The translations under genes and the position numbers were made by a program. From Winogradskyella eximia (GTDB taxonomy: Bacteria; Bacteroidota; Bacteroidia; Flavobacteriales; Flavobacteriaceae), in the NCBI RefSeq assembly GCF_003386165.1, contig NZ_QRDV01000008.1:81103-145102 (forward strand): a DNA stretch of 64,000 nucleotides. Reading direction: 5' to 3'. The notes beneath the pieces were generated by a model, which did not search any database, was not told the DNA's origin, and saw nothing but the letters and a program-made list of their open reading frames with translations. Positions 2,255 to 18,787 of this stretch are shown in pieces. Numbering within the stretch: position 1 is the first letter of the stretch; each line of letters opens with the position of its first letter.

Positions 2255-2260
2255 AATATT

Positions 2261-2293
2261 AAAAAAGGAAACCTAAAAAGTTTCCTTTTTTTT
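2261..2293. terminator. Bidirectional terminator between convergent genes
   Basis: A-run plus GGAAAC (2267-2272), a 7-nt loop, GTTTCC (2280-2285) and T8. It serves the plus-strand sigma unit and, read in reverse, the minus-strand propeller gene whose stop at 2292-2294 lies at its edge. Confidence 0.8.
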
Positions 2294-3377: not shown

Positions 3378-3401
3378 ATATAATAATTTTCCTTAAAAAT
3401 A

Positions 3402-3434
3402 GAAAAGCTTTACGATATAACCGCAAAGCTTTTC
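3402..3434 (-). terminator. Terminator after the SCO-family gene
   Basis: Perfect 10-bp stem GAAAAGCTTT (3402-3411) / AAAGCTTTTC (3425-3434), with T-rich sequence downstream on the minus strand. It resembles the GCTTC-type hairpins at 10523, 13885 and 14333. Confidence 0.75.
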
Positions 3435-3475
3435 AAATCATCAATAATCAATCAAATAAAAACTAGGTCATCACT

Positions 3476-4144: not shown

Positions 4145-4148
4145 AACA

Positions 4149-4775: not shown

Positions 4776-4778
4776 ATT

Positions 4779-5564
4779 TTAGTATCCTTGAAATGGTCCA
4801 GCAAAAAGAACATAGGCAGGTGCATAAGCATAATTACCTGCAGGATACACTTCATTAATAATATGATAATGATATTCTTCTGCGCCATCTGTATACTGTG
4901 TCGTAGATGTGTGACCACCTGAAGCATCTAAATCTGTAGGATTTGTTCCTGTTGAACTACATTGTCTTCCATAAATGAAGACACCATCGAGTAATATACC
5001 TACCAAACTATCATCATCGCTAGTAATTGGTGTAGGCTCTAAGTGATAGTGATACACACCTGGACCTTTGTGAGCTCCTGCCCAATCTAAACTTCCAGCA
5101 GCTTGATCTAAATCTCCCATACCTTCTTGATCATTAAATATAGACGCTCCACTAACTGCTATACCAATTGTATTTAATTGTGTAGTAACAGTAGCACCTG
5201 TTAAGTCTGGCGTGGCATCAACTGTAAAACTTGCTGCTTCACCTTGCCCACCACCAATATAGGTGTCTTGAGTTGTTTTTGTAACACCTGGCTCATCTAT
5301 ATAAAGCGCATTATCTGTTTCCCAATAAATTGATGTATGGTTTGGAAAACCTGTTGTTTCAATATAAACTTCAGTACCATCATCGGATAAAATAGCGGTG
5401 ACCGCATCTGAATTAAACGCTGCAAATGCGGCATGCAATTCTGTTACTCCAACATCGTCGTCGTCACCATTACCTCCATCACTTACAGAATCATCACTAC
5501 TGCAAGCAAATAGTGCAAAAGCAAAAATTGTAATGTAGGTTAAAGGTTTAAAATAGATTTTCAT
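4779..5564 (-). CDS. YHYH-domain lipoprotein
   Basis: 261 residues, lipobox FACS near residue 21, a low-complexity Asp/Gly linker (DGGNGDDDDVG), then a YHYH domain with the signature twice (GVYHYHLEP and EEYHYHIIN) and the LLDGVFIYG core. YHYH domains are found in secreted bacterial proteins of unknown function; the paired His/Tyr motifs suggest metal binding but this is not established. It is the first gene of a three-gene unit with a strong ECF-type promoter 28 bp upstream of its start. It is one of four YHYH genes in the cluster. Confidence 0.8.
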   Translation of the reverse strand: MKIYFKPLTYITIFAFALFACSSDDSVSDGGNGDDDDVGVTELHAAFAAFNSDAVTAILSDDGTEVYIETTGFPNHTSIYWETDNALYIDEPGVTKTTQDTYIGGGQGEAASFTVDATPDLTGATVTTQLNTIGIAVSGASIFNDQEGMGDLDQAAGSLDWAGAHKGPGVYHYHLEPTPITSDDDSLVGILLDGVFIYGRQCSSTGTNPTDLDASGGHTSTTQYTDGAEEYHYHIINEVYPAGNYAYAPAYVLFAGPFQGY

Positions 5565-5592
5565 AGTTTTAGTGTTTTAAGGTTATTTAATA

Positions 5593-5622
5593 TTTAGATG
5601 CCTTAACAGAAATAAACTTGTG
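5593..5622 (-). promoter_or_regulatory. ECF-type promoter for YHYH-YwqK-SCO operon
   Basis: On the minus strand CACAAGTTT, a 12-bp spacer, then GCATCTAAA ending 28 bp before the 5564 start. It is one of seven matching elements in this cluster, including one before the sigma gene. The rest of 5565-5776 shows only a degenerate AAAAAAAGCTTC stretch near 5655 that could be a decayed hairpin of the cluster type. Confidence 0.85.
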
Positions 5623-5776
5623 CAGGCTTTTCTTTTTAGTATTTATTTAACAAAAAAAGCTTCAAACAAAAACACTACAAACTGATTAAAATCGCTTTAC
5701 AAAAACGAATAATTCTTGTTTCTTATTATGGAATTATAAAGTGCCACTTTAAAAGGTTCTCGATTGTTATTCTGAA

Positions 5777-6355
5777 TTATAGTTTCTTCCGCTGACTCCA
5801 AAGAAAGACTCCAAAAACACAAAAAGCGACTACAATTAAGCCTGTTATAACGCGATTCCCTCCATTCCTTTCTGATATAGGCTGTAATACAGCTACAGGT
5901 GAATCTGGTGATGTAATGAATTTTAAATGCTCTTTTGAAACAAGTATATCGTGATAATTTTCCTGATCTTTATACACATTAAACATCACTGCATTTTTAA
6001 CGGTATCAAAAGCATTTCCTTCAAATAAAAAGATAAATGCATTGGCATGTGCATGCTCATTATGCGTTACCTCTTCTACAGCTATTAATTTTAAAATAGA
6101 GTCATCATTTCTCAATTCAAAATTAGTTTTAACGTAATCAAAAAAAGCTGTATCAAAATCCGCTTTACTTTTTGAATGTTCTAATTCTGGATAGGCTTCT
6201 AGAAGTGCATTTCTAATACTCCAAGGAAATTCAGCTCTTACTTCAACCAAATTATCTTTTTGTTGAATATTAAAAAAGGCTTTGTTGGCATCGTGAGCAA
6301 ATCCTACACCTGAAAAAGCAAAAAAAAGTAATACTATGCAACTAGAAAATTTCAT
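5777..6355 (-). CDS. Membrane-anchored exported protein of unknown function
   Basis: 192 residues with an N-terminal signal peptide (to about GFAH), a mainly beta/charged extracytoplasmic part containing the His-rich stretch HNEHAHANA, and a C-terminal membrane segment (VITGLIVVAFCVFGVFLW) ending in RKKL. So it is probably held in the inner membrane with its body in the periplasm. I do not recognise the family; a distant relation to DUF6702-type proteins is possible. Its start abuts the stop of the upstream YHYH gene, so it is translated from the same operon (promoter at 10474-10503). The His residues may fit a metal-related role. Confidence 0.6.
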   Translation of the reverse strand: MKFSSCIVLLFFAFSGVGFAHDANKAFFNIQQKDNLVEVRAEFPWSIRNALLEAYPELEHSKSKADFDTAFFDYVKTNFELRNDDSILKLIAVEEVTHNEHAHANAFIFLFEGNAFDTVKNAVMFNVYKDQENYHDILVSKEHLKFITSPDSPVAVLQPISERNGGNRVITGLIVVAFCVFGVFLWSQRKKL

Positions 6356-7432
6356 CTAGTTGTTTCCTATTTTAAAATCATTAGATGGTGTTCCTTTAAA
6401 GAATCTTGGAATACTAGGATATTCATCAGTTATAACATAGTAATACGTTCCTGATGGATATTCTGGAGTGACTCCTGTTCTACCATTGGCTTCATCTAAA
6501 GTGCCAAGCCCTGAAACATATTCGTAATCATTAGAATAAACACCATTGTAATCTCCGCAAGGAGCTGTAACTCCATCTCCTCCTCTATTGCCCGACTTTA
6601 ATTGGTAACTTGAAGACATTACAATAACAGAAGAGTTATTATTTGATGCATCCGAATACGCATATTTATAATAAATAGGAAAACCATCTGCAGCATAGCC
6701 AATTAATGTCATAGCATTTGTTGGTACATTTAATGATTCTAAAAATAATATTGGAGAACCATGGTAATGGTATTTACCTGTTGGTTGTACATGAGCACTA
6801 TTACAATCTAAACCTAAGTTAACATTTAAAGCCTCTAAATTCCACTCCCAATTTACGTTTGGACTCATAGCTCCTTCATGAGGAAAAGGTTCTGCAGCAA
6901 CAGGATCTAATTCTACACCATTTAGTAAAACACCAAATGAATATTGCGGTCCTGCATTTGGCCCTATTCCTGTTGTTGACAACAATGCCGTGAGAACATT
7001 CGCTTCCGTTGGATTAATTGTAATGGTATAAATTTCATTTTGCTCAGAAATGGCATTAGGATTTAATGAACCAGGTCCCATACCAAAGGTTCCAACAAGA
7101 TGTTCAGGTATACTATTTGAAGTAATTATTCTATTTGTTCCTGAAATAGTTTGGTTATATGAATTAGTAAAAGCTAATGTTTGATTACAAGCACCTCTTG
7201 AATCATCTAAAACTTGGTCTGACTCACAACCCGAATCATCAGTATCTGAATTATTGGAGACATAACCATTTGGTTGTTCGCAAGCCTCAATGCTAACATC
7301 TGGATTTCCCAAATTATCCTCATCAAAATCCTGGTACCAAGTTAATTCTGTACATGCGCTATCGTCATTGTTTGAACACGCTACGAATACTGCCAATATA
7401 ATTACCAGTAATAATTTTATTATGTTTTTCAT
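6356..7432 (-). CDS. YHYH-domain lipoprotein
   Basis: 358 residues with lipobox VACS (Cys19). After it comes a Cys/Asp-rich segment (TWYQDFDEDNLGNP, then TDDSGCESD) of the type found in thrombospondin-3-like calcium linkers. The YHYH domain follows: motif GKYHYHGSP, core GYAADGFPIYYKY, and a C-terminal tail YYYVITDEYPSIPRFFKG that is also found in the neighbouring YHYH protein at 7506. Function of the domain is unknown. It is the fourth gene of the EF-hand/YHYH operon, 73 bp after the previous stop. A TTTAGAC in that gap is not a convincing second promoter. Confidence 0.8.
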   Translation of the reverse strand: MKNIIKLLLVIILAVFVACSNNDDSACTELTWYQDFDEDNLGNPDVSIEACEQPNGYVSNNSDTDDSGCESDQVLDDSRGACNQTLAFTNSYNQTISGTNRIITSNSIPEHLVGTFGMGPGSLNPNAISEQNEIYTITINPTEANVLTALLSTTGIGPNAGPQYSFGVLLNGVELDPVAAEPFPHEGAMSPNVNWEWNLEALNVNLGLDCNSAHVQPTGKYHYHGSPILFLESLNVPTNAMTLIGYAADGFPIYYKYAYSDASNNNSSVIVMSSSYQLKSGNRGGDGVTAPCGDYNGVYSNDYEYVSGLGTLDEANGRTGVTPEYPSGTYYYVITDEYPSIPRFFKGTPSNDFKIGNN

Positions 7433-7505
7433 TAATTCAGTTGGTTAGCACTTTTTAGACTTAAGTGTGTGTGTTAAAAGTTTAATTCTTATAATGAATT
7501 TCTTC

Positions 7506-8648
7506 TTAATTTCTTCCTCCTTGTGGTCTTCCTCCTTGAGGCCTTTGCCCATTTTGGTTTTGTCCTTTTTCTAATTCTTCCTTTGTGATAAATCCATCCT
7601 TATCTGAATCTACTTTTGAGAAATGTTCAGACAAAGGTCCTTTTACTTCATCTTTAGATAGCTTACCATCTTTATTAGTATCCATTTTGCTTATTAATTC
7701 AGTAGCATTTGGTCGCTGACCTTGACCTCCTCTTGGTCTTTGTCCACCTCCTTGTGGTCTAGCTTCTTCATAGTCTCCCATTAAACATCTACTGATATAT
7801 GGAAACTCGGCTGTGACTAAATACATATAAACTCCATCAATTGTGATACCGTTGCATTCATCTAAGTCTCCTGAACCTGCTATATATTCAAAGTCAGAAG
7901 TAAATGTTCCATCATGATGACCACCGACAGAAATATCGATAGATTGATGCGGATTTTCATAGGTGCAATCTTCCCCTTCTCTATTACCATCTATAGCCTT
8001 ATAACTTGGTTTGAATTTCCCTGATTTAGAATAATACATAGGAAAACCATCGTGCGCAAAACCAACATGTACTAAATCTTCGCCTGCATCAAATTCTTCA
8101 ATTACAGAGGTTGGTGTTCCATGATAATGATAAGCACCTGTTGGTTGCACATGTGCATGATTAAAATCTAAGCCTAAATCTATAACATCTTGAAGTGCTT
8201 CTACTCGATAATTTTCGCCTGTATCACATTCAACAACCTCAGCTGTTCCCGGTTCAAATTTAATACCATTCAATGCTATTCCTGGCTCTCTTGCCCAAGT
8301 TGCTTTGCCTGTATATTTTGGGTTTAAAGGAAAACTGTAAGTATTATTCTGAGCAGAAATTGTATTTGGATTTCCTGGGTTTGGAAATTCTCCTGTTTTA
8401 TGATTTGGTAAAGCATTGGTTACCATAACTCGTGCATCTTTGGTAAGTGTCACTTTTGTTTTGGTACCATATTCTTCATTTTCTAAATCGTAAGCACCAA
8501 AATAATGAGTCATATTAGAAAAGCTTTTTGTTGAATGAGAATGTGTCTCTCCACCATCATGACTATGTTCTCCTTTATTTTTTTGACTATTACAACCTAA
8601 TAAAAAAGCTAAAGCCATTACACTTGTAATTCTAACAATGTATTTCAT
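7506..8648 (-). CDS. YHYH-domain lipoprotein with C-terminal EF-hand pair
   Basis: 380 residues: lipobox LLGC (Cys19), then a His-rich stretch (GEHSHDGGETHSHS, residues 27-40) that looks metal-binding. The YHYH domain (GAYHYHGTP, GFAHDGFPMYYS) ends in YLVTAEFPYISRC. A Gly/Arg/Pro/Gln linker leads to two EF-hand loops, DTNKDGKLSKDE (323-334) and DSDKDGFITKEE (347-358), and the protein closes with a QRPQGG-type tail. The EF-hand loops have canonical Ca ligands. Third gene of the operon starting at 10451; the gap to the previous stop is 26 bp. Confidence 0.85.
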   Translation of the reverse strand: MKYIVRITSVMALAFLLGCNSQKNKGEHSHDGGETHSHSTKSFSNMTHYFGAYDLENEEYGTKTKVTLTKDARVMVTNALPNHKTGEFPNPGNPNTISAQNNTYSFPLNPKYTGKATWAREPGIALNGIKFEPGTAEVVECDTGENYRVEALQDVIDLGLDFNHAHVQPTGAYHYHGTPTSVIEEFDAGEDLVHVGFAHDGFPMYYSKSGKFKPSYKAIDGNREGEDCTYENPHQSIDISVGGHHDGTFTSDFEYIAGSGDLDECNGITIDGVYMYLVTAEFPYISRCLMGDYEEARPQGGGQRPRGGQGQRPNATELISKMDTNKDGKLSKDEVKGPLSEHFSKVDSDKDGFITKEELEKGQNQNGQRPQGGRPQGGRN

Positions 8649-8674
8649 CTTTTAAAATTATTTGAATTAAAGTC

Positions 8675-9874
8675 TCACCCCTTAACAGACACTGATCCAC
8701 TTACTCCATGTAAACAGCCTAAAACTTGATTGCTACCAGCATCTCCTGCGTGGTAATGGTAACCTCTAATCTCATCATAATGTCCACCACAATCATCTAA
8801 ATCATGGTATCCATTACCGTTTTTGTCCTTGTGCGCATAGATTCCAAAACCATCCATAGCATAACCAATCATTGGTGCATGAGTATCTTTTTGCGCTATC
8901 TCTTTTGTCTTACCTGTAACGGCATGATAATGATAACCTGCATGTGGATTAACATGACCACCAGCATCATCTAAAGGTGCTAAAGTATGTGCTGAAAGTA
9001 TAGCATGTGTTGGTGCTGGAGCATCAAAATTAACACCGTTAAATGCAACTCCAATACCGTTTCTTCCTAATGCATTTGAATTTTCTAAATACATAGGTTT
9101 AACAGGAATAATGTAAGTTGATACTTTCTCTCTATAATAGTCTGGTAAACATTCTACACAATAATTATGATACTTTTCATCAACATCTGGTCTTGCTGCA
9201 GCTTCACATTCTTCTTGAGTCTTTGTAACTTTAACTGATCCATCTTCTCTAAACAACGCCCATTCTTCATCAGAATAAAATTCTTTAAGGTTGGCAATAA
9301 AATGGCCATCTACATCATAGACTTTATCATCTTTAAACCAAATACCACCTTTATCTTTACCGTCATTAATATGTGTTGGACACCATGGTCCCATTTTGTG
9401 TTCTTGAGGTTGAGAAGCTGTTGTAATAACATAACATAGGGCTTTTGTACCATTAGATAGCGTCCGTTCTTCTGTTGTAATTTCTTTTAATAAACTTTCC
9501 TTTATAAATAATGAAGGATCTACATTTATAGTGACTTCGAAATCTTTCTGAACACTGTTGTTAGTTCTAGTCTCTCTTGGTTCTCTTCTCTCTGGTCTCG
9601 GTGCACTTTCTAATTCCTCTTTAGAGAGAAAACCATTATTATTAGTATCTATTGTAGAAAAATCATTTGATAAAGGGCCTTGCACTTCTGACTTTGATAA
9701 TTTTCCATCTTTATTAATATCCATCTCATTTATTAAATCAGTGACACTAGGTGCCTGCCCTTCTCTTGGATTGACAATATTATCATCATTAGATTTTGTA
9801 CTTGGCTTACAGCAGAAGAATGTTACAGTAAACACAAATATTATCATCGCTTTTAAGATCTTGGAATACTTCAT
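8675..9874 (-). CDS. YHYH-domain lipoprotein with N-terminal EF-hand pair
   Basis: 399 residues with a lipobox around FFCC (Cys21/22). The EF-hand pair comes first here: DINKDGKLSKSE (52-63) and DTNNNGFLSKEE (76-87), followed by an Arg/Pro/Glu linker and a YHYH domain with two signatures (GYHYHAV near 313, GYHYHAG near 371). Between them lies GYAMDGFGIYAHKDKNGNG, itself partly EF-loop-like. The EF pair is very similar to that at the C-terminus of the 7506 protein, so the module has moved relative to the YHYH domain. Second gene of the operon; the 46-bp gap upstream has no ECF motif. Confidence 0.85.
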   Translation of the reverse strand: MKYSKILKAMIIFVFTVTFFCCKPSTKSNDDNIVNPREGQAPSVTDLINEMDINKDGKLSKSEVQGPLSNDFSTIDTNNNGFLSKEELESAPRPERREPRETRTNNSVQKDFEVTINVDPSLFIKESLLKEITTEERTLSNGTKALCYVITTASQPQEHKMGPWCPTHINDGKDKGGIWFKDDKVYDVDGHFIANLKEFYSDEEWALFREDGSVKVTKTQEECEAAARPDVDEKYHNYCVECLPDYYREKVSTYIIPVKPMYLENSNALGRNGIGVAFNGVNFDAPAPTHAILSAHTLAPLDDAGGHVNPHAGYHYHAVTGKTKEIAQKDTHAPMIGYAMDGFGIYAHKDKNGNGYHDLDDCGGHYDEIRGYHYHAGDAGSNQVLGCLHGVSGSVSVKG

Positions 9875-9920
9875 AAATAAATGGATTTAAAATGTTTCAA
9901 TTAAAGTTAACCTATTAGTT

Positions 9921-10451
9921 CTATTCCTTTCTGTTTTTGGTTTTCTTATCGTCTTTTGAATAAAACGCTTTTAACTCTTCTATATCTAATTGACTATCAC
10001 CATTTACATCAATCTCAGAAAAATTAGCCATCAAATCTCGCTTGTCTTTTGCGGCAACCTCCAATTCATTTAATTGTCCATCTTCATCTTGATCTACTTC
10101 TTTTAAAAGTTTCTTTATAGATACTCTTTTAGGTTTTCTGCTGTCTAAAGACGCTTCCAATTCTTCTAAATCTATAAATCCATCTTCATTAGCATCTATG
10201 GTATCAAAATCTTCAGAAATCTTTCCTCTTTTGTCTTTTGCTGCTTCATCTTTATCAATTTTATCATCGTTATTGATATCTAACAATTTTAATATTTCTG
10301 AAGCATTTGGTTTTTCGCCTTTTGGTGGTCCACCACCTTGTCTTCCGCCTCTTCCTCCTTGTCCTCCACCAGGAGGTCCTTGAGCAAACGTGGTTAAACA
10401 TAGTAGCATTGAAAATACCGTTATTACAAATGTTATTTTTCTATTTTTCAT
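9921..10451 (-). CDS. Secreted four-EF-hand protein
   Basis: 176 residues: signal peptide to about TFAQ, a Gly/Arg/Pro-rich linker (residues 25-47), then four EF-hand loops: DINNDDKIDKDE (58-69), DANEDGFIDLEE (86-97), DQDEDGQLNELE (120-131) and DVNGDSQLDIEE (148-159). Ligand positions 1, 3, 5 and 12 are mostly Asp/Asn/Glu, so calcium binding is likely. The first and fourth loops lack the central Gly. It leads a five-gene operon with an ECF-type promoter 22 bp upstream of its start. It may buffer Ca or be a partner of the cluster's CotH kinases; that is inference. Confidence 0.85.
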   Translation of the reverse strand: MKNRKITFVITVFSMLLCLTTFAQGPPGGGQGGRGGRQGGGPPKGEKPNASEILKLLDINNDDKIDKDEAAKDKRGKISEDFDTIDANEDGFIDLEELEASLDSRKPKRVSIKKLLKEVDQDEDGQLNELEVAAKDKRDLMANFSEIDVNGDSQLDIEELKAFYSKDDKKTKNRKE

Positions 10452-10473
10452 TTTGATTCTTATTGTTTTTATT

Positions 10474-10503
10474 TTTAGATGTGTTATTCTAAAAAAACTT
10501 GTG
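10474..10503 (-). promoter_or_regulatory. ECF-type promoter for the EF-hand/YHYH operon
   Basis: Minus strand CACAAGTTT, 12-bp spacer, ACATCTAAA ending 22 bp before the start at 10451. It matches the other six elements in the cluster. Confidence 0.85.
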
Positions 10504-10517
10504 TTAATAACATAAAA

Positions 10518-10549
10518 AAAAAAGCTTCATGATAAAATCACAAAGCTCT
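10518..10549 (-). terminator. Terminator after the T9SS CotH gene
   Basis: An 11-bp stem (ATCACAAAGCT at 10537-10547, AGCTTCATGAT at 10523-10533) with a 3-nt loop and two non-Watson-Crick positions, followed on the minus strand by a long T-run. It belongs to the GCTTC-type hairpin set of this cluster. Confidence 0.8.
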
Positions 10550-10578
10550 TCTACTATTAAACAATATAAATTACTCAA

Positions 10579-12897
10579 TTATTTTCTTGCTATTTTTAAT
10601 ACTGTAATTTCATTTACAACCACTAGATATAATCCTTTAGAAAAAGAAGTAAAATCAATATTTACAGCGTTTTCATTAACGTAACTTCCTTTAAACAATT
10701 GCTGACCTTGAAGATTATAAACCTCGACAGATTCAATTGAAAAATTGGTATTTTCTAGAGTTAAATAATTGTTTGTTGGATTTGGGAAGTACTTTAAATG
10801 ATTGTTAAATGTTACTTCATCAACAGAGAGCGTTTCGTTATTGGCGCCAAAAGTTGGAGCTTGAATTACAAAATCACCAGTTCCGTTTGGATTTCTGGCA
10901 TAAGCCATATCTGTAGTTTGCTCACCAAAAGTTATGTTTTGCAAAATAGTACCATCAGCATAAGATAAAATGGCTGTTTCACCACCTGACGAGAATTTAA
11001 AGTCGGCATGAAAATCTCCTTGTTCTGGATCTTTATCGCACCAAACTATTAAATAACTATCTGCATCTAAAGTTGTTCCTGCAGGAAATTGATAAACTAA
11101 TGGATCTGAAGCATCATCTGATAAATACAAGTTATCTAAACTTAATGTTGCATCTGTAGTGTTATATAACTCAATCCAATCTTCATATTCTCCTTCTTCA
11201 TCAGTTTCACCTGTATCATTTGAAGCTAAAATTTCGTTTATTACCAAATCACCAACGTTTAATGTGGCATAAGTAGCATCTACTGTATAAAATTCATACT
11301 CTGCTCTAGCAGGTGAAAATGCTCCAATATTAGAATTTTCAGCATAAATATAATATTGCATGTAGGCGTCATCAATAGTTACATCAATGCCATAAACGTT
11401 ATCTCCTGCAGCTCCATCGTTGTGCGCTCCATCATCAAACATTTCTACTTTTGTAAATGGTATAGATTCATCTGTTCTATATCCTAAATACACATTGTTA
11501 GTGTCTGTAACATTTGCTGTAATTGATATATCATCACCTATAGTAGGTATTGCTACAGAAGATCCTAAATTGTTTATAGTGGGTTGTGTATTTGTAAAAT
11601 CGGATTGTGATAACAAATATGAACTTCTTGAGCTCATTAAATTTGTAAGTCCAGAGGCCGTATTCATTCCTAAGCTATAATCCGTATTTATATTCCCTGT
11701 AAATTGAGCATCAGTGTAAAACTTATTAGTATCTGCTGTAACTGCAGTAGAGATTATAGCTTGATAATCATTAGCTAAAGTTAAGTAGTTTGAATTACTA
11801 ATATTCTCTGTTAAAATAGTTTTATAATGTGCTAAATACATTCTCTTGTATTTAGGTACTGCTAACAATTTAGAAATTAAAGGAAAATCAGAACTCGTAT
11901 CATGTAATAAATGGTCTAATTGCGCTTTTTGAGTGGTTGTATTTAAAGAACCACCTCCGCCACCTCCAGGACCACCTCCTCCGCTACTTTCACCTGTCAT
12001 TGCGAAAGTACCAAAAGACATATTTAAATCCCATACTACAGGCTTAAACTGCCCATTGTTGTCTTTGTATAAATAATAATTTTGTTTAAACTGACCTATA
12101 TAACTATCTAAATTTACCATAACATTATCAAATGCCAACATCCATATTGCCATATCAACATCTAAAACAGATTCAATATTAGTAATATCGTTATTTAAAG
12201 TGTACGTTAAATCTATTAAATCATCCCAATGTGCTAAAGCAACAGAAGGATCATCATCATCATCAGATTTAATTTCATAGGCATCATCATAGCTCGTATA
12301 ACTTGTACCTAAATATTGTAAATTTGGTAAGTTGGTACTTTGAGGTCCGGCTCCATCTGGTGGACTACAACTAAAAAAAGCATTATCGTTAGAATTAAAA
12401 TGTTTGTTTACAAATTTCTTAGAAATTGATTCTGTGTTTGTATATAAACCAATCAAAGTTCCGTTAACATAAACATTAGCATAATTAGCTTGAGGTGCAT
12501 CCATATATTGGTTTACAATATTATAGGCTACTGTTTCTCTCACAAAAGACGGATCAAACATAACATTTGCCAATTTAATATCGGTATAACCTTGATGATC
12601 TTGATCTACATACGTATCTAATTCAATATGAAATGGATTCTTTGTTTGGTTAGCACTGTAAGAGCTATTTCCCTTATACTTTACACCAACTTGGTTATAA
12701 ACTGTTCCGTTTATGGTTACAGAAGTAGCTTCCGTATAATTATTATCTCCAGCTTTTTCTGCATCTAATAGTGCGTCCCAATTGCTTTGAGCGAATTGGA
12801 TTTCTATGGTCTGAATAGAATTAATATCATACAAATCTTGCGAAAACGCATTCATTGACAATAAGAATATCAATAGAATAGTAATTGTTTTTTTCAT
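10579..12897 (-). CDS. Secreted CotH-type kinase with lamin-tail and T9SS sorting domains
   Basis: 772 residues. A signal peptide (to about AFSQ) is followed by a CotH kinase domain (about 25-450) with the family landmarks GNSS (76-79), IGLYTNTE (149-156), NLDSY (262-266) and VVWDLN (287-292). CotH proteins are atypical kinases first known from Bacillus spore coats. A Gly tract (305-317) interrupts the domain. Then come a beta-sandwich region (about 480-560), a lamin-tail domain (about 570-690, VINEILASND...DWIELYN) and a C-terminal T9SS type-A sorting domain starting at YFPNPTNN, so it is probably exported across the outer membrane. It has its own ECF-type promoter and terminator. Kinase activity is inferred from motifs. 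Confidence 0.88.
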   Translation of the reverse strand: MKKTITILLIFLLSMNAFSQDLYDINSIQTIEIQFAQSNWDALLDAEKAGDNNYTEATSVTINGTVYNQVGVKYKGNSSYSANQTKNPFHIELDTYVDQDHQGYTDIKLANVMFDPSFVRETVAYNIVNQYMDAPQANYANVYVNGTLIGLYTNTESISKKFVNKHFNSNDNAFFSCSPPDGAGPQSTNLPNLQYLGTSYTSYDDAYEIKSDDDDDPSVALAHWDDLIDLTYTLNNDITNIESVLDVDMAIWMLAFDNVMVNLDSYIGQFKQNYYLYKDNNGQFKPVVWDLNMSFGTFAMTGESSGGGGPGGGGGGSLNTTTQKAQLDHLLHDTSSDFPLISKLLAVPKYKRMYLAHYKTILTENISNSNYLTLANDYQAIISTAVTADTNKFYTDAQFTGNINTDYSLGMNTASGLTNLMSSRSSYLLSQSDFTNTQPTINNLGSSVAIPTIGDDISITANVTDTNNVYLGYRTDESIPFTKVEMFDDGAHNDGAAGDNVYGIDVTIDDAYMQYYIYAENSNIGAFSPARAEYEFYTVDATYATLNVGDLVINEILASNDTGETDEEGEYEDWIELYNTTDATLSLDNLYLSDDASDPLVYQFPAGTTLDADSYLIVWCDKDPEQGDFHADFKFSSGGETAILSYADGTILQNITFGEQTTDMAYARNPNGTGDFVIQAPTFGANNETLSVDEVTFNNHLKYFPNPTNNYLTLENTNFSIESVEVYNLQGQQLFKGSYVNENAVNIDFTSFSKGLYLVVVNEITVLKIARK

Positions 12898-12929
12898 TTG
12901 TTAAGTTTAATTTATTGATGTGATACACC

Positions 12930-12959
12930 TTTAGATGCTTAAACAATAAAAAACTTGCG
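12930..12959 (-). promoter_or_regulatory. ECF-type promoter for the T9SS CotH gene
   Basis: Minus strand CGCAAGTTT, 12-bp spacer, GCATCTAAA ending 32 bp before the start at 12897. The remainder of 12898-13081 holds nothing else recognisable. Confidence 0.85.
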
Positions 12960-13081
12960 CTATATATTAAATAATTTTAAAAAAAACCAAAACCACAATT
13001 AAAATGCTAATAATTAAATAACTGAATCAGTATTTAATTAATGTATTATTTATAAAAATAACATCATTGTTAATTTTTTAA

Positions 13082-13822
13082 TTACTTGTTCAATTGAAAA
13101 GCAATTATTTCTGTTTTGTTTCTTAAACTTTTAGCGTTTGTTAATTGTATTTCAGTTTGTAATAACCGATCTACCAAACTATTTTGGTATTCGCGACTTT
13201 TAAGCAATTGTGTATAGTTAGATTCAGTAGAAAACGTTTTGAAACAATTAAATTTGAATTCGCGCTTTTTTAGCATATCAATTAAAGAGATATAATTTTC
13301 TATCGCAGGTTGCAATCGATTAATAACGATGTTTTCAATCTTAGATTCTTGATTTTGAAAATTGTCTAGTTCATTAGGGTATGCTGCAATTAAATCTTTA
13401 AGTAAAACACTTTCAATAAACTCAAATTTATTTGTGGTATTAACTGAATTTATGGCTCCATTGTGCAATTGTGTAGGTTGGTAATTCACAAAAATAATAT
13501 TTGTTTTTTGCGCTTCAGTATATTGACTTGGCAACTCGTCCATAACAATAGCAATGGTACCTTCTATAGCTTTTACACTCTCAGTATAATTAGCAATTGA
13601 AGCATCTAGAAGCACTAAGTTGGAGTTTAACTCTTCACTTAGTGATTGATATATTTTTAATTCTACTATTCTATTTTTTCTTAATTCATTTAAATTATTA
13701 ATTTTCCAAGCAATTAAAACACCAATTACAATTAACAATATTTCTCCTATTGCATAAACGATGTAATTTCTCAATTTTCCTGAAATCAATAATTTCTTTC
13801 TTATTTTTCTAAATAATCTCAT
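13082..13822 (-). CDS. DUF6090 family membrane protein
   Basis: A 246-residue protein starting MRLFRKIRKKLL, with one membrane segment at about 25-42 (YAIGEILLIVIGVLIAWKI) and a long helical charged C-terminal part. This is the layout of DUF6090, a family common and of unknown function in Flavobacteriaceae. Start 13822 is preferred over the in-frame GTA-preceded ATG at 13834 because family members begin directly with the basic FRKIR segment. It lies between two ECF-promoter units but has no ECF motif itself. A 13-bp tandem duplication precedes it, so it may be an insertion in the cluster with separate control. Confidence 0.7.
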   Translation of the reverse strand: MRLFRKIRKKLLISGKLRNYIVYAIGEILLIVIGVLIAWKINNLNELRKNRIVELKIYQSLSEELNSNLVLLDASIANYTESVKAIEGTIAIVMDELPSQYTEAQKTNIIFVNYQPTQLHNGAINSVNTTNKFEFIESVLLKDLIAAYPNELDNFQNQESKIENIVINRLQPAIENYISLIDMLKKREFKFNCFKTFSTESNYTQLLKSREYQNSLVDRLLQTEIQLTNAKSLRNKTEIIAFQLNK

Positions 13823-13843
13823 ACCACTTACCATTATTTAAAC

Positions 13844-13869
13844 ATTTTATATAGATATTTTATATAGAT
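13844..13869. repeat. 13-bp perfect tandem duplication
   Basis: ATTTTATATAGAT occurs twice back to back (13844-13856, 13857-13869), followed by a further partial ATTT. It sits 22-47 bp upstream of the DUF6090 start, where promoter elements would be expected. Confidence 0.85.
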
Positions 13870-13876
13870 ATTTCTT

Positions 13877-13908
13877 AAAAAAAAGCTTCGCGATTTCTCA
13901 CGAAGCCT
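13877..13908 (-). terminator. Terminator after the small EF-hand gene
   Basis: GCTTCG (13885-13890) pairs with CGAAGC (13901-13906). On the minus strand the hairpin is followed by T8. Its sequence is close to the hairpin at 14331-14356. Confidence 0.8.
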
Positions 13909-13931
13909 TAAAAAAACCAATCAATCAAACT

Positions 13932-14222
13932 CTATTTATTTCTTTTTTTTCGTTCTGGCTTAGGAGCATTTTTAAACTCTTCCTCTGTAATAAAACCATC
14001 TTCATCTGTGTCTACTTTAGAAAAATCTTCTTTTAATGGTCCTTTTATCTCATCTTTTGAAAGTTTACCGTCTTCATTTTTATCCATTTCCTTTAACAAC
14101 TCACTAAATGTTGGTGGCTCTTTTCTTTCTTTACGATTTTGAGATTGTGCATAAGAATTAGTAGACATAAATAATGCTATTCCAAATACTATTGCTACTG
14201 TTTTAAATGTTTTACTTTTCAT
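13932..14222 (-). CDS. Small secreted EF-hand-pair protein
   Basis: 96 residues: signal peptide (to about SYAQ), a basic linker, and one EF-hand pair, DKNEDGKLSKDE (47-58) and DTDEDGFITEEE (71-82), joined by the segment IKGPLKEDFSKV, then a Lys/Arg-rich tail. Both loops have full canonical Ca ligands and the central Gly. The pair is nearly the same as the EF modules in the YHYH proteins at 7506 and 8675, here free-standing. It is a single-gene unit with an ECF-type promoter 26 bp upstream and its own terminator. Confidence 0.85.
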   Translation of the reverse strand: MKSKTFKTVAIVFGIALFMSTNSYAQSQNRKERKEPPTFSELLKEMDKNEDGKLSKDEIKGPLKEDFSKVDTDEDGFITEEEFKNAPKPERKKRNK

Positions 14223-14248
14223 CTTTTCAAATTTTAATGTTATATAAG

Positions 14249-14278
14249 TTTAGATGTGCTTCTACATATAAACTTGTG
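14249..14278 (-). promoter_or_regulatory. ECF-type promoter for the small EF-hand gene
   Basis: Minus strand CACAAGTTT, 12-bp spacer, ACATCTAAA ending 26 bp before the start at 14222. The segment upstream (TGTTAAATAAAACAC, 14287-14301) is also found upstream of the promoter at 15855. Confidence 0.85.
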
Positions 14279-14330
14279 AGGTGTCTTGTTAAATAAAACA
14301 CAAAAAAAGTACCATCTATTTTAAACAACA

Positions 14331-14356
14331 AAGCTTCGTAATTACTCACGAAGCCT
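14331..14356 (-). terminator. Terminator after the lipoprotein CotH gene
   Basis: GCTTCG (14333-14338) pairs with CGAAGC (14349-14354) around a 10-nt loop. It belongs to the same hairpin type as 13877-13908. T-run on the minus strand is short. Confidence 0.65.
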
Positions 14357-14396
14357 TTAATAATCTAAAAACAATCAGCTCAAATAGCTAATAATA

Positions 14397-15818
14397 TTAT
14401 TGTCCATTTAAATAATTACTTACTGCTGTAGCTCTTGATACAACATGCGAGTTCAATGTACTAACAGCTGTTTGAAAATCTGAACTACTATTTAAAAATG
14501 AATACCCATCTAGTTCAGTGGTAGCATAAGGCTCTATTAAGGTAGAATATGTTGCGTATTGGGATTGAATAGTGTTTACATCAAACGCTCCATCTACAAC
14601 CTCTTGAACGTATGCATTGTATTGCGCTTTATACACTTCATCTGCGTATAAATATCCAATTAACGGCCATTGAGAGCTACTTAATCCTGAAAAATCTAAA
14701 GGTAAAGAACCTCCCATATTTCCGGTTTGTAAAGCCTCATTATTATCCCATGGAATCCATGTTAATTTATTCGTATCTGGATTGTTGTAGAGATAATAAT
14801 TATGAGTCATTTTACCATAAGTGTCCCAATTTTGGATGACCGTATTTGTTGCTAAATATTTTAAGAAAACATCCGTATCTAAAACAGCATCTAAATTAGT
14901 TCTCCATGTTACTGGATCAGAAGTTCTTGTAGCATCATTGATTATAGTATATAAACTTTGAACATCGGAGAAATCTGCATCATCTTCATTTGTCTTTTTA
15001 ACAAATTCATTTTCATCGTAAGTACCATAAGCAAAACTAGCAGCATCACCGTCTGGTTTATATAAATTACCATCATCATCAGAAAATTGAGTATCTAAAA
15101 CAGTATCATCTACTTCTTCAACCATGGTGTAAAGACCAAAATAAATTGGACCATCTCCATGATCTACATAAACAGTATAAAATGCAGTATGAGAACCTGC
15201 TAAACCTGCATTTCTAAATACATCACCTGCTACTTTTTCTCGTAATTGGGATTTGTCATTATAATTATTTTTAAGGCTTAGTTTTTTGAATCCATAAAAA
15301 CGTTGGTTATCTATTTGTGGATAATCATCTTCAAACTCATCAAAATCTAATTTAAATGAAAGTTTTAAAATACCATTAGCCCAAGAAGAAGCTAAACTAG
15401 AATTACCTTTAAATCTTACTCCTACTCTGTACCATTCAATTCCGTTATAAAAAACCTCTGCAGGCACAAATATTGGATCTTCGTCATCATCGGAAAATGA
15501 TCCATTTCCGCCACCAAATGCTCCATATAGATTAGTCATATCATCAAGCATATTTCCCCAACGAGATTCTGTAATAACGATATCTATGCGCTTTACAGCA
15601 TTATCTTCAAATACCTCATCAAAATCTGGATCAGCATCTTTACTATGCGTTTCCGTGGTCCAATCTGTAGCTTCAAAATCAGTATCATCAATAATAACCT
15701 CTACCTCGTCACTAGATGAAGTTACATCATCATTACTGCAAGCATTAAAAGTCAGTATCGAGGTACTAATACATATTGCTACTAATAAAAATTTAATTGT
15801 GTTTCTCATGTTTTTCAT
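14397..15818 (-). CDS. CotH-type kinase lipoprotein
   Basis: 473 residues with a lipobox FNAC (Cys27), an acidic Ser/Asp linker, then a CotH kinase domain: VRFKGNSS (134-141), FGLYTMVEE (227-235), NWDTY (330-334) and WIPWDNN (354-360), which are the expected nucleotide/metal-binding landmarks. Unlike the neighbouring 10579 protein it has no lamin-tail or T9SS domain and should stay membrane-anchored. It is about as long as family kinases and looks intact. Single-gene unit with its own ECF-type promoter. Substrates are unknown; the EF-hand, YHYH and Spy-like neighbours are candidates. Confidence 0.87.
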   Translation of the reverse strand: MKNMRNTIKFLLVAICISTSILTFNACSNDDVTSSSDEVEVIIDDTDFEATDWTTETHSKDADPDFDEVFEDNAVKRIDIVITESRWGNMLDDMTNLYGAFGGGNGSFSDDDEDPIFVPAEVFYNGIEWYRVGVRFKGNSSLASSWANGILKLSFKLDFDEFEDDYPQIDNQRFYGFKKLSLKNNYNDKSQLREKVAGDVFRNAGLAGSHTAFYTVYVDHGDGPIYFGLYTMVEEVDDTVLDTQFSDDDGNLYKPDGDAASFAYGTYDENEFVKKTNEDDADFSDVQSLYTIINDATRTSDPVTWRTNLDAVLDTDVFLKYLATNTVIQNWDTYGKMTHNYYLYNNPDTNKLTWIPWDNNEALQTGNMGGSLPLDFSGLSSSQWPLIGYLYADEVYKAQYNAYVQEVVDGAFDVNTIQSQYATYSTLIEPYATTELDGYSFLNSSSDFQTAVSTLNSHVVSRATAVSNYLNGQ

Positions 15819-15854
15819 ATCTAATTATTTTTAAAACTTTTACTATTACTTAGA

Positions 15855-15885
15855 TTTAGATGTAAATATGGTTTTTAAACTTGTG
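15855..15885 (-). promoter_or_regulatory. ECF-type promoter for the lipoprotein CotH gene
   Basis: Minus strand CACAAGTTT, 13-bp spacer (the only 13 in the set), ACATCTAAA ending 36 bp before the start at 15818. Confidence 0.8.
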
Positions 15886-15910
15886 GATGCTATTGTTAAA
15901 TAAAACACAA

Positions 15911-15940
15911 AAAAAAGACCTTCAATAGTTGAAGGTCCTT
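15911..15940 (-). terminator. Terminator after the Spy-like gene
   Basis: Perfect 9-bp stem GACCTTCAA (15917-15925) / TTGAAGGTC (15929-15937) with a 3-nt loop and a T-run on the minus strand. Confidence 0.85.
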
Positions 15941-15957
15941 ACTGTAAATTTTTAATA

Positions 15958-16461
15958 TTACGAATTGCGAGGTGGTGGCCTATGCCCTTTTCCTTCTCCA
16001 GGTGGTGGAGGTCTCTGTCCTTGATCTCCTTGTCGTAACGCATCTTTTATTATAGTTTTAAACTTTTCTTTTTGCTTATCATTAGATAATTCTTGTATCA
16101 TTTTAAAATGATAAAAAATCTCCTTGTCTTTTAGTTTTTCTTTTTCACAAATTAAAGATGAAATAGAATCGATTGTCGATTCATTTATTCCGTCTTCTGA
16201 TAATTTACTGAAGAGTTCATCTTTTAAGCCTTTAATTTCATCTGACAAACGCATCATAATTTGATGATGACCTTGGCTATTTTCTTTAAATTGTGCTAAT
16301 TGTGCTTTATTAAAACCCAGTTCTTTTACAATAAAATCTCTATTCCCTTGAGGTCCTTTTGATGTATTTTCATTGCTTTCACTCATGTAATTAAACAGAA
16401 AAAATCCATTCACTACAATTAGGAAAGCGACTAAAATGTATAATATATTATTCTTCTTCAT
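15958..16461 (-). CDS. Membrane-anchored Spy/CnrX-like periplasmic protein
   Basis: 167 residues: an N-terminal membrane anchor (about 7-25), then a helical domain (about 40-140) with the segment KELGFNKAQLAQFKENSQGHHQ and a long charged helix pair, as in CnrX/ZraP/Spy-type proteins. The C-terminus is a Pro/Gly/Arg tract (QRPPPPGEGKGHRPPP). In the CnrYXH system a protein of this shape senses metal and controls an anti-sigma factor; the gene order sigma, anti-sigma, Spy-like matches that plan. The HH pair at about 63-64 could be a metal site. The gene begins 2 bp after the anti-sigma stop and is followed by a terminator. Confidence 0.7.
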   Translation of the reverse strand: MKKNNILYILVAFLIVVNGFFLFNYMSESNENTSKGPQGNRDFIVKELGFNKAQLAQFKENSQGHHQIMMRLSDEIKGLKDELFSKLSEDGINESTIDSISSLICEKEKLKDKEIFYHFKMIQELSNDKQKEKFKTIIKDALRQGDQGQRPPPPGEGKGHRPPPRNS

Positions 16462-16463
16462 GA

Positions 16464-16760
16464 TTATTTTAATAAAGTAGATTCTGTGGTTGTAGATAGG
16501 CCATAAGACTCCGCAAAACTGCTCACATTTTCATCGTAAGTTGTTTCTTGTAAATTATTAAAAGCCATAATATTCAATACAACAACACAAACCAAAGTCG
16601 CTAATTGTAATTTTGGTGTAAACCATGAGTACGTTGCCGCTTGAATGTCTTCTGATGCATTACGAATTTTATGCATCACTTTCTCTTTAAAAAACGGAGA
16701 CACTTTAACTTCGCCAATTGACTCTAACGAATCAAAAGTAGCTTTCACTTTTTCATTCAT
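16464..16760 (-). CDS. Probable anti-sigma factor (single-pass membrane protein)
   Basis: About 98 residues with a cytoplasmic N-terminal part (EKVKATFDSLESIGEVKVSPFFKEKVMHKI), one membrane segment (about LQLATLVCVVVLNIMAF) and a short periplasmic tail. Size and topology resemble CnrY-type anti-sigma factors. It follows the sigma gene directly. An in-frame ATG exists at 16778, but it lies only 9 bp from the -10 of the ECF-type promoter at 16788-16817. The ATG at 16760 gives a 27-bp distance, within the 22-36 bp of the other six units, so I prefer it. The anti-sigma role is inferred from context. Confidence 0.7.
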   Translation of the reverse strand: MNEKVKATFDSLESIGEVKVSPFFKEKVMHKIRNASEDIQAATYSWFTPKLQLATLVCVVVLNIMAFNNLQETTYDENVSSFAESYGLSTTTESTLLK

Positions 16761-16787
16761 TTCAACATTTGTTTTCATATCTATATA

Positions 16788-16817
16788 TTTAGATGCATAA
16801 GTCTAAAAAAACTTGTG
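16788..16817 (-). promoter_or_regulatory. ECF-type promoter for anti-sigma and Spy-like genes
   Basis: Minus strand CACAAGTTT, 12-bp spacer, GCATCTAAA. It begins right after the sigma gene stop, giving the anti-sigma gene an additional promoter within the sigma unit. Confidence 0.85.
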
Positions 16818-17396
16818 CTAATGTTCGTTTTTATAATAATTTTCTAAAATTTTCTGTAAATTCTTCTTAGCTCTAAACATTACTGACTCTACAGAAGACA
16901 AGCTTTTATTTGTAATCTCAGCAACTTCTTGGTAACTTTTTCCGTCAACTTTATGGAGCGTAAAAATAACGGACTGACTTTCAGGCAATCTATTAATTGC
17001 CATAAATAAAGTTGAATTGAGTTCTTTGTTTTCTAACAAAATCCCTGGATGATTCATTTCTGTAAAATAATCTGTCTTATCCATCGGAATTGCATTTCCT
17101 GTTATAGACTGTAAAAAAGCAAAACGTTTTTTAGTACTCTTCTTTCTAATAAACTCTAAACACTTATTAGTTGTAATTCTATAAATCCAAGTTGATAATT
17201 TTGAATCACCTTTAAATTTATGAATAGAATTGTAAACCTCAACAAAAACATCTTGCGCAATATCCTCTGCATCTTCTTTATTAGGCACAAAGGAAATACA
17301 CGTGGCAAATACTTTTTGCTGAAAATCATCGACAAGCTTACTGTAAGCTACAGTGCTTTTCAAGTTTAATTCTTTTATAAATTCAGTTTCTGTCAA
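16818..17396 (-). CDS. ECF-type RNA polymerase sigma factor, likely master of the CotH/YHYH regulon
   Basis: 192 residues with sigma region 2 (NKEDAEDIAQDVFVEVYNSIHKFKG, then STWIYRITTNKCLEF) and region 4 (LPESQSVIFTLHKVDGKSYQEVAEITNKSLSSVESVMFRAKKNL). Start is TTG at 17396: an in-frame stop lies two codons upstream and no Met occurs early in the protein, so no ATG start is possible. An element of the cluster motif lies 25 bp upstream, which implies autoregulation. The next genes are the membrane anti-sigma and Spy-like proteins. Control of the seven motif-bearing units is inferred from motif and position. Confidence 0.9.
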   Translation of the reverse strand: MTETEFIKELNLKSTVAYSKLVDDFQQKVFATCISFVPNKEDAEDIAQDVFVEVYNSIHKFKGDSKLSTWIYRITTNKCLEFIRKKSTKKRFAFLQSITGNAIPMDKTDYFTEMNHPGILLENKELNSTLFMAINRLPESQSVIFTLHKVDGKSYQEVAEITNKSLSSVESVMFRAKKNLQKILENYYKNEH

Positions 17397-17421
17397 AAAT
17401 TATTTGTGTTGCTTGATTATT

Positions 17422-17451
17422 TTTAGATGCTTTTAAAAATAAAAACTTGCG
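17422..17451 (-). promoter_or_regulatory. ECF-type autoregulatory promoter of the sigma gene
   Basis: Minus strand CGCAAGTTT, 12-bp spacer, GCATCTAAA ending 25 bp before the TTG start. It matches the six other elements. Confidence 0.85.
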
Positions 17452-17516
17452 GTAATATTAATTATTTTTAAAAATAACACTTTTGAATAAAGTCTCACAA
17501 TTTTAATCTTTTAGCT

Positions 17517-17524
17517 TACCTTTG
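17517..17524 (+). promoter_or_regulatory. Bacteroidota -7 box (TACCTTTG) for the rRNA methyltransferase
   Basis: TACCTTTG fits TAnnTTTG and stands 52 bp before the ATG at 17576. No clear -33 TTG at usual spacing. Confidence 0.6.
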
Positions 17525-17575
17525 CACGTTATTTTTGCAGAACACATTTTGCATATTGAAAATTAAACATTAGTT

Positions 17576-18787
17576 ATGAGATTACATAGAAACTTATGCT
17601 TTGCCGTAATTGACGGATTACACCTTATTTTTAACGAAGGTGAGTATGCAGATAAAGTAATACAGCAATTACTAAAGCGTGATAAACGTTGGGGAAGTAG
17701 AGATAGAGGATTTGTTGCAGAAACCGTTTATACCATTGTACGTTACCAAAGATTATATGCAGAAATTGCTAATGTAAAAGCACCTTACCATAGAGATGAT
17801 CTATGGCGAATGTTTGCTGTTTGGGCAACTCTTAAAGGTATAAAATTACCGGATTGGAAATATTTCACAGATACTCCTACTAGAAAAATTAAAGGACGCT
17901 TTGATGAATTATCTAAAATTAGAAAATATAGAGAGTCTATTCCAGATTGGATTGATGAATTGGGTGTTGCGGAATTAGGTGAAGCAGAATGGACTAAGGA
18001 AATTGCTATGCAAAATGAGCAAGCTGAAGTTATTCTTCGAGTAAATACCATAAAAACAAATAAAAAAGACTTACAACTTAAGTTACAGTCTGAAGACATT
18101 GAAACTGAGTTTTTACCAAATCATCCTTCGGCATTAAAATTAGTAGAACGTGCTAATGTATTTAAAACTGAAGCCTTTAAAAACGGTTGGTTTGAAGTAC
18201 AAGATGCTTCTTCTCAATTAGTTGCAGATTACCTAGACGTAAAACCCGGAATGAAAGTCGTTGACGTTTGTGCTGGTGCTGGTGGAAAAACATTGCATTT
18301 GGCTTCTTTAATGGAAAATAAAGGTCAGCTTATTGCTATGGATATTTACGAAAGTAAATTGAAAAAACTCAAAGTAAGAGCACGTAGAAATGGTGTTCAT
18401 AACATTGAGATGAAAGTGATTGATTCTACCAAACCAATTAAAAAATTGCATGGTAAAGCAGATCGTTTACTAATTGATGCACCATGTTCTGGCTTAGGAG
18501 TTTTACGTAGAAATCCAGATGCGAAATGGAAATTGCAACCTGAGTTTATAGAAAACATAAAAAAGACACAATTAGAAGTTTTAGATCAATACTCTAAAAT
18601 GGTAAAATCTGGTGGAAAAATGGTCTATGCAACGTGTTCTGTTTTGCCTTCAGAAAATCAAAAACAAGTTGAGACATTCTTAACAACAGAAGCTGGTAAA
18701 GAATTTACGCTTGTAAAAGACAAAAAGATATTAGCCTATAAATCTGGTTTTGATGGATTCTATATGGCACTTTTAGAAAAAAAATAA
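17576..18787 (+). CDS. RsmB/NOP-family RNA cytosine-5 methyltransferase
   Basis: 403 residues. The N-terminal part (to about 150) is an RsmB-like helical/RNA-binding region; the C-terminal part is a class I SAM-dependent methyltransferase fold with the SAM motif VDVCAGAGGKTLHLA (about 226-240). It has the two cysteine motifs of m5C methyltransferases: APCSGLGVLRRNPDAKW (catalytic-type PC) and ATCSVLPSENQKQVE (TC). The likely substrate is rRNA, cytosine C5. The gene is divergent from the ECF sigma gene but has a housekeeping -7 box rather than the ECF motif, so it is not part of that regulon. Confidence 0.88.
   Translation: MRLHRNLCFAVIDGLHLIFNEGEYADKVIQQLLKRDKRWGSRDRGFVAETVYTIVRYQRLYAEIANVKAPYHRDDLWRMFAVWATLKGIKLPDWKYFTDTPTRKIKGRFDELSKIRKYRESIPDWIDELGVAELGEAEWTKEIAMQNEQAEVILRVNTIKTNKKDLQLKLQSEDIETEFLPNHPSALKLVERANVFKTEAFKNGWFEVQDASSQLVADYLDVKPGMKVVDVCAGAGGKTLHLASLMENKGQLIAMDIYESKLKKLKVRARRNGVHNIEMKVIDSTKPIKKLHGKADRLLIDAPCSGLGVLRRNPDAKWKLQPEFIENIKKTQLEVLDQYSKMVKSGGKMVYATCSVLPSENQKQVETFLTTEAGKEFTLVKDKKILAYKSGFDGFYMALLEKK

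Follow-up and report, generated by a model that had tools for sequence, protein, structure and literature searches.

A 64,000-nucleotide stretch of Winogradskyella eximia DNA (assembly GCF_003386165.1, contig NZ_QRDV01000008.1, positions 81,103 to 145,102; hereafter the window) carries on its minus strand a cluster of genes for exported CotH, EF-hand and YHYH proteins, headed by an operon for an extracytoplasmic function (ECF) sigma factor, a putative anti-sigma factor and a sensor-like protein. The sigma factor (16818–17396; 192 amino acids, TTG start) has only the sigma2 and sigma4 domains of ECF sigma factors (Pfam Sigma70_r2 at residues 21–87, Sigma70_r4_2 at residues 132–180), and its recognition helix, placed by alignment, reads SSVESVMFRAKK. 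The putative anti-sigma factor (16464–16778; 104 amino acids) has one membrane stretch, recognized by eye, and a conserved PFFK motif. The third gene (15958–16461) encodes a membrane-anchored, periplasmic sensor-like protein of 167 amino acids, whose N-terminal membrane stretch is followed by a helical remainder. Seven near-identical bipartite elements stand before genes of this cluster and are very probably promoters read by this sigma factor, defining a private regulon.

The elements, all on the minus strand, follow the consensus CRCAAGTTT-N12-RCATCTAAA and precede the sigma gene (CGCAAGTTT-N12-GCATCTAAA; 17422–17451), the anti-sigma gene at the sigma/anti-sigma junction (16788–16817), the CotH1 gene (15855–15885), a gene for a 96-residue EF-hand protein (14249–14278), the CotH2 gene (12930–12959), an EF-hand/YHYH operon (10474–10503) and a YHYH-MORN-SCO1 operon (5593–5622). 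A scan of the window finds all seven exactly where a first-pass annotation of the sequence had placed them, with the spacer lengths that it had described: N12 in six and N13 in the CotH1 element. The usual spacer becomes N13 when the motif is trimmed to CAAGTTT...CATCTAA(A); viewed by its cores, GCAAGTT or ACAAGTT is separated from TCTAAA by N16 in six of the window sites and by N17 in one, and a core spacing of about 16 bp, as in ECF promoters, holds for the sites of relatives also. The -10 box lies 28, 22, 32, 26, 36, 9 and 25 bp from the start codon for the elements beginning at 5593, 10474, 12930, 14249, 15855, 16788 and 17422, respectively. The range of 22–36 bp proposed earlier is thus right for six elements and probably too long for the anti-sigma gene, for which the start at 16760, giving 27 bp, had been used in place of the start at 16778 favoured here.

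The genes behind the elements, also on the minus strand and named by Pfam matches, encode proteins that bear export signals or lipoprotein boxes as judged by eye. Three are the CotH kinase-family protein CotH1 (14397–15818; 473 amino acids, a lipoprotein by eye), the 96-residue EF-hand protein (13932–14222; signal peptide by eye) and CotH2 (10579–12897; 772 amino acids), which joins CotH and lamin-tail domains to a type IX secretion signal. One operon runs from 10451 to 5777 and encodes an EF-hand protein (9921–10451; 176 amino acids), an EF-hand plus YHYH protein (8675–9874; 399), a YHYH plus EF-hand protein (7506–8648; 380), a YHYH protein (6356–7432; 358) and a DUF6702-like protein (5777–6355; 192), the last with a match below the Pfam cut-off. 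The other encodes a YHYH protein (4779–5564; 261), a MORN_2 repeat protein (4149–4775; 208) and a SCO1/SenC-type protein (3476–4174; 232). The Pfam tally behind the sites is two CotH, four EF-hand and four YHYH proteins, one SCO1 and one MORN protein, and no gene behind the seven sites has a Pfam match to an efflux family. Terminator-like hairpins follow the sensor gene and the genes for CotH1, the 96-residue EF-hand protein and CotH2, and another lies between SCO1 and a BNR gene (14 hairpins were found within 2000–18000, where 5.9 are expected). Most sites therefore begin a new unit. The DUF6090 gene (13082–13834), which had been singled out as the one unit without an element, indeed has none and is cut off from the preceding unit by the hairpin at 13882–13909.

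In the whole genome (4,242,526 bases in 27 contigs), the seven exact matches in the cluster are the only ones, and the random scatter that was expected if the motif were meaningless is not seen. The reversed pattern has no exact match in the same genome, and the element is absent from 100 dinucleotide shuffles of the window. With up to two mismatches and one fixed spacer, the genome holds 60 matches, including six exact cluster sites, and the reversed control gives 43. Inspection of inexact matches outside the cluster covered the one-mismatch class, which has five members: four lie within reading frames, and behind the fifth no reading frame begins within 250 bp.

Conservation was followed in 80 named loci of relatives, taken from among the matches listed and chosen by the sigma protein alone. 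These loci hold 295 sites, 292 on the strand of the cluster and three on the opposite strand; permuted versions of the motif, 40 in all, average 1.6 sites in the same loci and never exceed 7. The usual spacer occurs in 283 of the 295 sites, and in these 283 the bases ahead of CAAGTTT, which were not part of the scan, are also conserved (C in 92%, purine in 100% after rounding). Homologues of the window-cluster genes stand behind 264 sites, other genes behind 13 and no gene behind 18, and 20 sites lie inside called reading frames. Still counted in the total are seven one-mismatch matches with a spacer one base longer, at about 9100–9270 of L069, L074, L076, L080, L081, L091 and L140, within a neighbouring opposite-strand gene that is RsmB-like by its place. 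Every named locus has a site at the sigma/anti-sigma junction when two mismatches are allowed. With at most one mismatch, the motif is present in 34 of the 37 loci from the family Flavobacteriaceae, contrary to the absence before orthologous clusters that would have told against the proposal; the other three carry a divergent sigma and another promoter motif. The EF-hand/YHYH/MORN/SCO1 operon is divergent in L059, L061 and L064, and the site there is on the operon's strand. In eight effector gene groups of the named loci, the median distance to the first ATG is 22–34 bp, and in four of the five large target groups A is enriched at the sixth base past the -10 box, the expected transcription start. 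The YHYH-MORN-SCO1 trio occurs twice in tandem in L038 (genome G140), with a site (at most one mismatch) before the first copy only.

The motif also tracks the sensor gene. Among 299 genomes of the family, the sensor gene is found in 38 and a relaxed motif in 71. Of the 38 sensor-bearing genomes, 25 have at least two motif matches, compared with one of the 261 others (Fisher p about 8e-26, with related genomes treated as independent); at least one match is present in 30 of the 38 and 41 of the 261. Of the eight sensor genomes without an exact match, five have cluster sites with one mismatch and three, which have the lowest sensor scores, have another type of promoter. G157, the only further Winogradskyella genome sampled, has no sensor match, and its nearest sigma is 38% identical. 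The system therefore seems to have been gained or lost within the genus Winogradskyella.

Further members of the regulon are indicated by matches far from the clusters. In the sensor-holding genomes, 17 of 18 such matches (counted by eye) were examined, the one left out being a short-spacer match in G153. Twelve have the usual spacer, eight of them intergenic before a reading frame and four in or over coding sequence. Five have other spacers, four of them in reading frames and one (L161) intergenic. These five and the four usual-spacer matches in coding sequence were treated as chance. Seven of the eight distal targets were scanned and are a sulfatase, a CHU_C-tailed protein, a CotH protein, a VTC protein, a PAP2 protein, a YHYH protein and a di-haem peroxidase (CCP_MauG); the eighth resembles a second sulfatase by sequence. 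Inside the clusters of relatives, the additional targets include VTC with DUF4956 and DUF2490, a sulfatase, Lcl_C, Cthe_2159 and a di-haem peroxidase. In L122 (12236–16004), a site is followed by the VTC, DUF4956 and DUF2490 genes and then by a CotH gene. L048 shows the same gene lengths and order as this block, judged by lengths alone, and VTC alone stands behind a site in L153 and L196.

Within the sigma operon, the two sites differ in conservation. The junction site has at most one mismatch in 76 of the 80 named loci and two mismatches in the other four. The site before the sigma gene has at most one mismatch in 41 loci and two in one, and the corresponding stretches of the remaining 38 have 3–6 mismatches, like random stretches. 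The element before the sigma gene, which had been stressed in the earlier proposal, is thus present in the window but is the less conserved of the two. Because the junction site is near-universal and the sigma site occurs in 41 of 80, the conserved logic of the operon is, by its sequences, negative feedback, in which the sites always include the brake and the sensor and include the sigma itself about half the time. The excerpted text of PMC8103513 counts positive autoregulation among the hallmarks of the earliest ECFs to be studied. The -35/-10 sequences given in that excerpt differ from those of the window, which has AAG and CATCTAA; the same excerpt holds that later findings permit no clear-cut rules for such promoter sequences, and ECF membership is not excluded thereby. 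The TTG start of the sigma gene, at 17396, is shared at the matched first residue by 77 of the 80 named loci, and such a conserved weak start would hold the sigma level low.

Homologues of the putative anti-sigma factor are present in 78 of the 80 named loci. Its start is more likely at 16778 than at 16760, because most orthologues among the matches listed begin at the position of 16778 (starts being called mechanically) and because the first in-frame ATG lies at most 12 bp behind the box in 50 of 74 named loci. If transcription starts at the sixth base past the box, the leader of the anti-sigma mRNA would be about four bases long.

The sensor-like protein alone matches no solved structure in a direct sequence search. 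A profile of 53 homologues matches Spy (E 3e-4) and, weakly, CnrX (E 1.2) and NccX (E 1.7), and at E values up to 1 the Pfam families LTXXQ (Spy/CpxP) and Metal_resist match 40 and 32 of the 53 members, respectively. A Pfam match to SpoIIIAH was set aside as below its cut-off. An alignment-based model with a mean predicted local distance difference test score (pLDDT) of 77.9 was used for fold comparison, and a single-sequence model with a mean pLDDT of 47.8 was discarded. The first Foldseek match of the model is CnrX (3epv; probability 1.00, E 0.066, target TM 0.77), and CnrX accounts for eight of the first nine chains, with a Salmonella VirG-like protein third and CpxP, ZraP and Spy following. 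A VIA comparison of the sensor model gives Z 11.3 and a root-mean-square deviation of 2.7 over 107 aligned residues. The model thus resembles the CnrX fold, and CpxP, ZraP and Spy match it too, so that CnrX is not singled out. Conserved in 79 copies are His65 (76), Met69 (68), His118 (52) and Cys126 (59), and it is plausible that the sensor binds metal between its two long helices.

The protein could instead be a chaperone of the Spy/CpxP type that reports misfolded envelope protein rather than metal, as the best profile match to Spy and the frequent LTXXQ and Metal_resist matches would suggest. This account is possible but not the likelier one: it is opposed by the predominance of CnrX among the first Foldseek chains, by the frequent histidine, methionine and cysteine residues, which would suit a metal site, and by the arrangement of the operon, which with its sigma and small membrane protein resembles that of CnrX-type sensors.

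Outside the family, the same kind of operon occurs with what appears to be a rewritten promoter. In a sample from the whole class Bacteroidia, the sensor profile matches 47 of 247 genomes and the exact motif of the window type occurs in five; G444 and G529, of another family, have it at the sigma/anti-sigma junction. Junctions of 57 sigma loci were assigned by the author from printed matches to type A (CAAGTTT-N13-CATCTAA, at most two mismatches; 37 loci), type B (CGAAGGA-N15-CGTCTAA, exact in 7 of 14; 14 loci), a mixture (two) or neither (four). Because the -35 box of type B extends into the final codons of the sigma gene, the type B motif was searched for genome-wide. Exact type B sites number 21, against three for the reversed control; 10 of 14 type B genomes have them and none of 10 others does. 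Of the 20 sites examined, seven are at the junction, one is before the sigma gene, 11 are before targets and one is inside a gene. The 11 targets comprise six YHYH genes and genes for CotH, VTC, arylsulfotransferase, di-haem peroxidase and redoxin. With a looser pattern (12 matches, against seven for the reversed control, in 13 genomes), sites joining a type A -35 box to a type B -10 box are found in G488, G444 and G529; five of the 12 matches are in reading frames and seven before a start codon. One of the mixed-box sites precedes a YHYH gene and two precede related proteins with no Pfam match (L219 was scanned). In G444 and G529 the two forms of the -10 box coexist. The mixed-box sites therefore suggest that the -35 and -10 boxes changed separately, while the kinds of target seem to have been kept.

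Residues of the recognition helix vary with the promoter type. The window sigma aligns with SigW without an offset across this helix, and, according to the excerpts of PMC6713349, Lys170/Arg171 of SigW/RpoE makes contact with the G opposite C-31, and His174/Phe175 with the -32/-33 pairs. In both promoter types, the AAC of classical ECF promoters is replaced by AAG. Residue 170 is Glu in all 37 type A sigmas and 13 of the 14 type B sigmas, with Asp in one type B. Residue 174 is Phe in all 37 type A sigmas and Gln or Ser in all 14 of type B, and residue 167 is Ser, Pro or Ala in type A versus Lys in type B. Two sigmas that are just 42–43% identical to the window sigma retain Ser167 and Phe174 and the CAAGTT box. 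L184 has Ser167 and Phe174 yet no CAAGTT box at its junction. The covariation of residue and promoter is at this stage a lead to be followed.

Taken together, the two unlike half-sites at fixed spacing, the fixed orientation, the conservation and the link to the sigma operon support the earlier proposal that the elements are ECF promoters. We infer that the sigma reads the motif directly, along with the transcription from it, the role of the anti-sigma, the hold-and-release step and the nature of the signal. A membrane-spanning anti-sigma factor encoded next door would hold the sigma, and a membrane-anchored periplasmic protein of the CnrX/Spy/CpxP fold would sense an envelope signal, most likely metal or else misfolded protein, and make the anti-sigma release the sigma. 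The released sigma would then transcribe the genes for exported proteins of the CotH, EF-hand, YHYH and SCO1 types, and would use the junction promoter to express its own brake and sensor.

Several observations weigh against this interpretation. About half of the relatives have no site before the sigma gene; the A signal at the expected transcription start is missing at the sigma's own sites, and position 15 is as A-rich as the expected start position. The anti-sigma matches no known family in Pfam and no solved structure in a profile search, and its role is therefore assigned from its place, size and membrane stretch. The fold matches of the sensor are weak (best E 0.066, none below 0.001) and are to helical bundles, for which a Z score near 11 is not decisive, and the window sensor has Ser126 where most relatives have Cys126. 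The covariation of sigma residues with promoter type is confounded with descent, as there are 40 positions at which the two groups have no common residue that is shared between them. Finally, a second sigma-like gene lies nearby in the window (about 700–1221; contig positions 81802–82323), and such a gene is also present in 24 of the 37 family loci.

A conserved element with two halves that recurs ahead of many genes could also be the operator of another DNA-binding regulator, with the main sigma factor transcribing the genes. The half-sites are, however, unlike each other and at one distance in 283 of 295 sites, with the -35/-10 spacing of ECF promoters; their orientation is fixed to the gene and turns with divergent operons, they keep a median of 22–34 bp to the first ATG in the eight effector groups, and the element changes together with the sigma lineage. 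An operator is thus very unlikely, although no search aimed at further regulators common to the loci was made.

The promoters might instead be read by another ECF sigma of the genome, which holds 23 other sigma-like genes, the one at about 700–1221 of the window included. Twenty of these were examined: none has the set Ser167, Ser168, Glu170 and Phe174, and Glu170 occurs in three and Phe174 in two. The second sigma-like gene of the window has a different helix, with Gly167, Lys170 and His174. In the family, the gene of this kind (about 180 amino acids) belongs to a recurring opposite-strand block behind the cluster (24 of the 37 loci L031–L067, for example L031 and L039). Against a role for another sigma in reading the motif, 10 of the 34 motif-bearing family loci show no second sigma nearby, the junction site is found in 80 of 80 named loci, and across the 299 genomes the motif follows the operon of the sigma described here and its sensor. 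Reading by another sigma therefore seems most improbable. A chance or repeat origin of the seven elements can be dismissed on the shuffles, the genome count, the permuted motifs, the differing spacers and the conservation in all 80 loci.

Among known systems, CnrYXH of Cupriavidus metallidurans (sigma CnrH, anti-sigma CnrY, periplasmic sensor CnrX) resembles the window operon in its composition: both pair an ECF sigma with a small protein bearing a single membrane stretch and with a helical periplasmic protein anchored in the membrane. The gene order of cnrYXH differs from that of the window operon. Unlike in CnrYXH, the genes behind the seven window sites are of the CotH, EF-hand, YHYH and SCO1 types and none is for metal efflux, a profile search of solved structures gives no sequence match between the anti-sigma and CnrY, and among such structures the closer match of the sigma is RpoE (E 9e-22), with CnrH at E 2e-6. 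Sigmas of the RpoE/SigW type share the sigma2/sigma4 domains, the promoter layout of the window (GCAAGTT-N16-TCTAAA) and, in the case of SigW, the helix numbering. They differ in the -35 box, for which the excerpts of PMC6713349 give GGAACTT in RpoE: the window has AAG, not AAC, and Glu170 in place of the Lys170/Arg171 that contacts the G paired to C-31. SM6 of Flavobacterium psychrophilum, which has a CGT -10 box and type IX secretion genes as targets in the excerpts of PMC9723704, is likewise of the ECF type and from Flavobacteriaceae. Compared by -10 box and targets, type B shares the CGT -10 box with SM6, whereas type A has CATCTAAA, and the targets listed in those excerpts differ.

A literature search, mainly of open-licence papers, found no account of this regulon. 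Judged by sequence, the regulon is new, though of a known kind, and it is uncommon in its junction feedback promoter, in a CnrX-like sensor coupled to CotH, YHYH and EF-hand targets instead of efflux, and in its apparently rewritten promoter. It offers a complete testable regulon, with promoter, sigma, likely brake and sensor, and targets, for YHYH proteins, bacterial CotH and exported EF-hand proteins, whose role is unclear, in Flavobacteriaceae such as Winogradskyella and Algibacter. The relatives further supply a natural series, with constant kinds of target and a changing promoter, and the named residues make the co-change of sigma and promoter testable. A role in exported phosphorylation and metal handling would be a guess.

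A wider reading, which might hold but is put forward tentatively, is that exported CotH, YHYH, EF-hand, VTC and di-haem peroxidase proteins form a conserved regulon in Bacteroidia, governed by a single ECF sigma lineage and placed behind a CnrX-like sensor. The whole regulon would have moved together among the promoter forms CGAAGGA/CGTCTAA, GCAAGTTT/CGTCTAA and GCAAGTTT/CATCTAAA, with changes in the -35 box tracking residues 167 and 174 of the recognition helix and with Glu170 keeping AAG rather than AAC in every form. The regulon would then be an extracellular phosphorylation and calcium/copper system in which the exported EF-hand and YHYH proteins are substrates of the CotH kinases. A gene for an endonuclease I with fibronectin III and a type IX secretion signal lies close to the cluster, on the opposite strand of the window (18860–20638).

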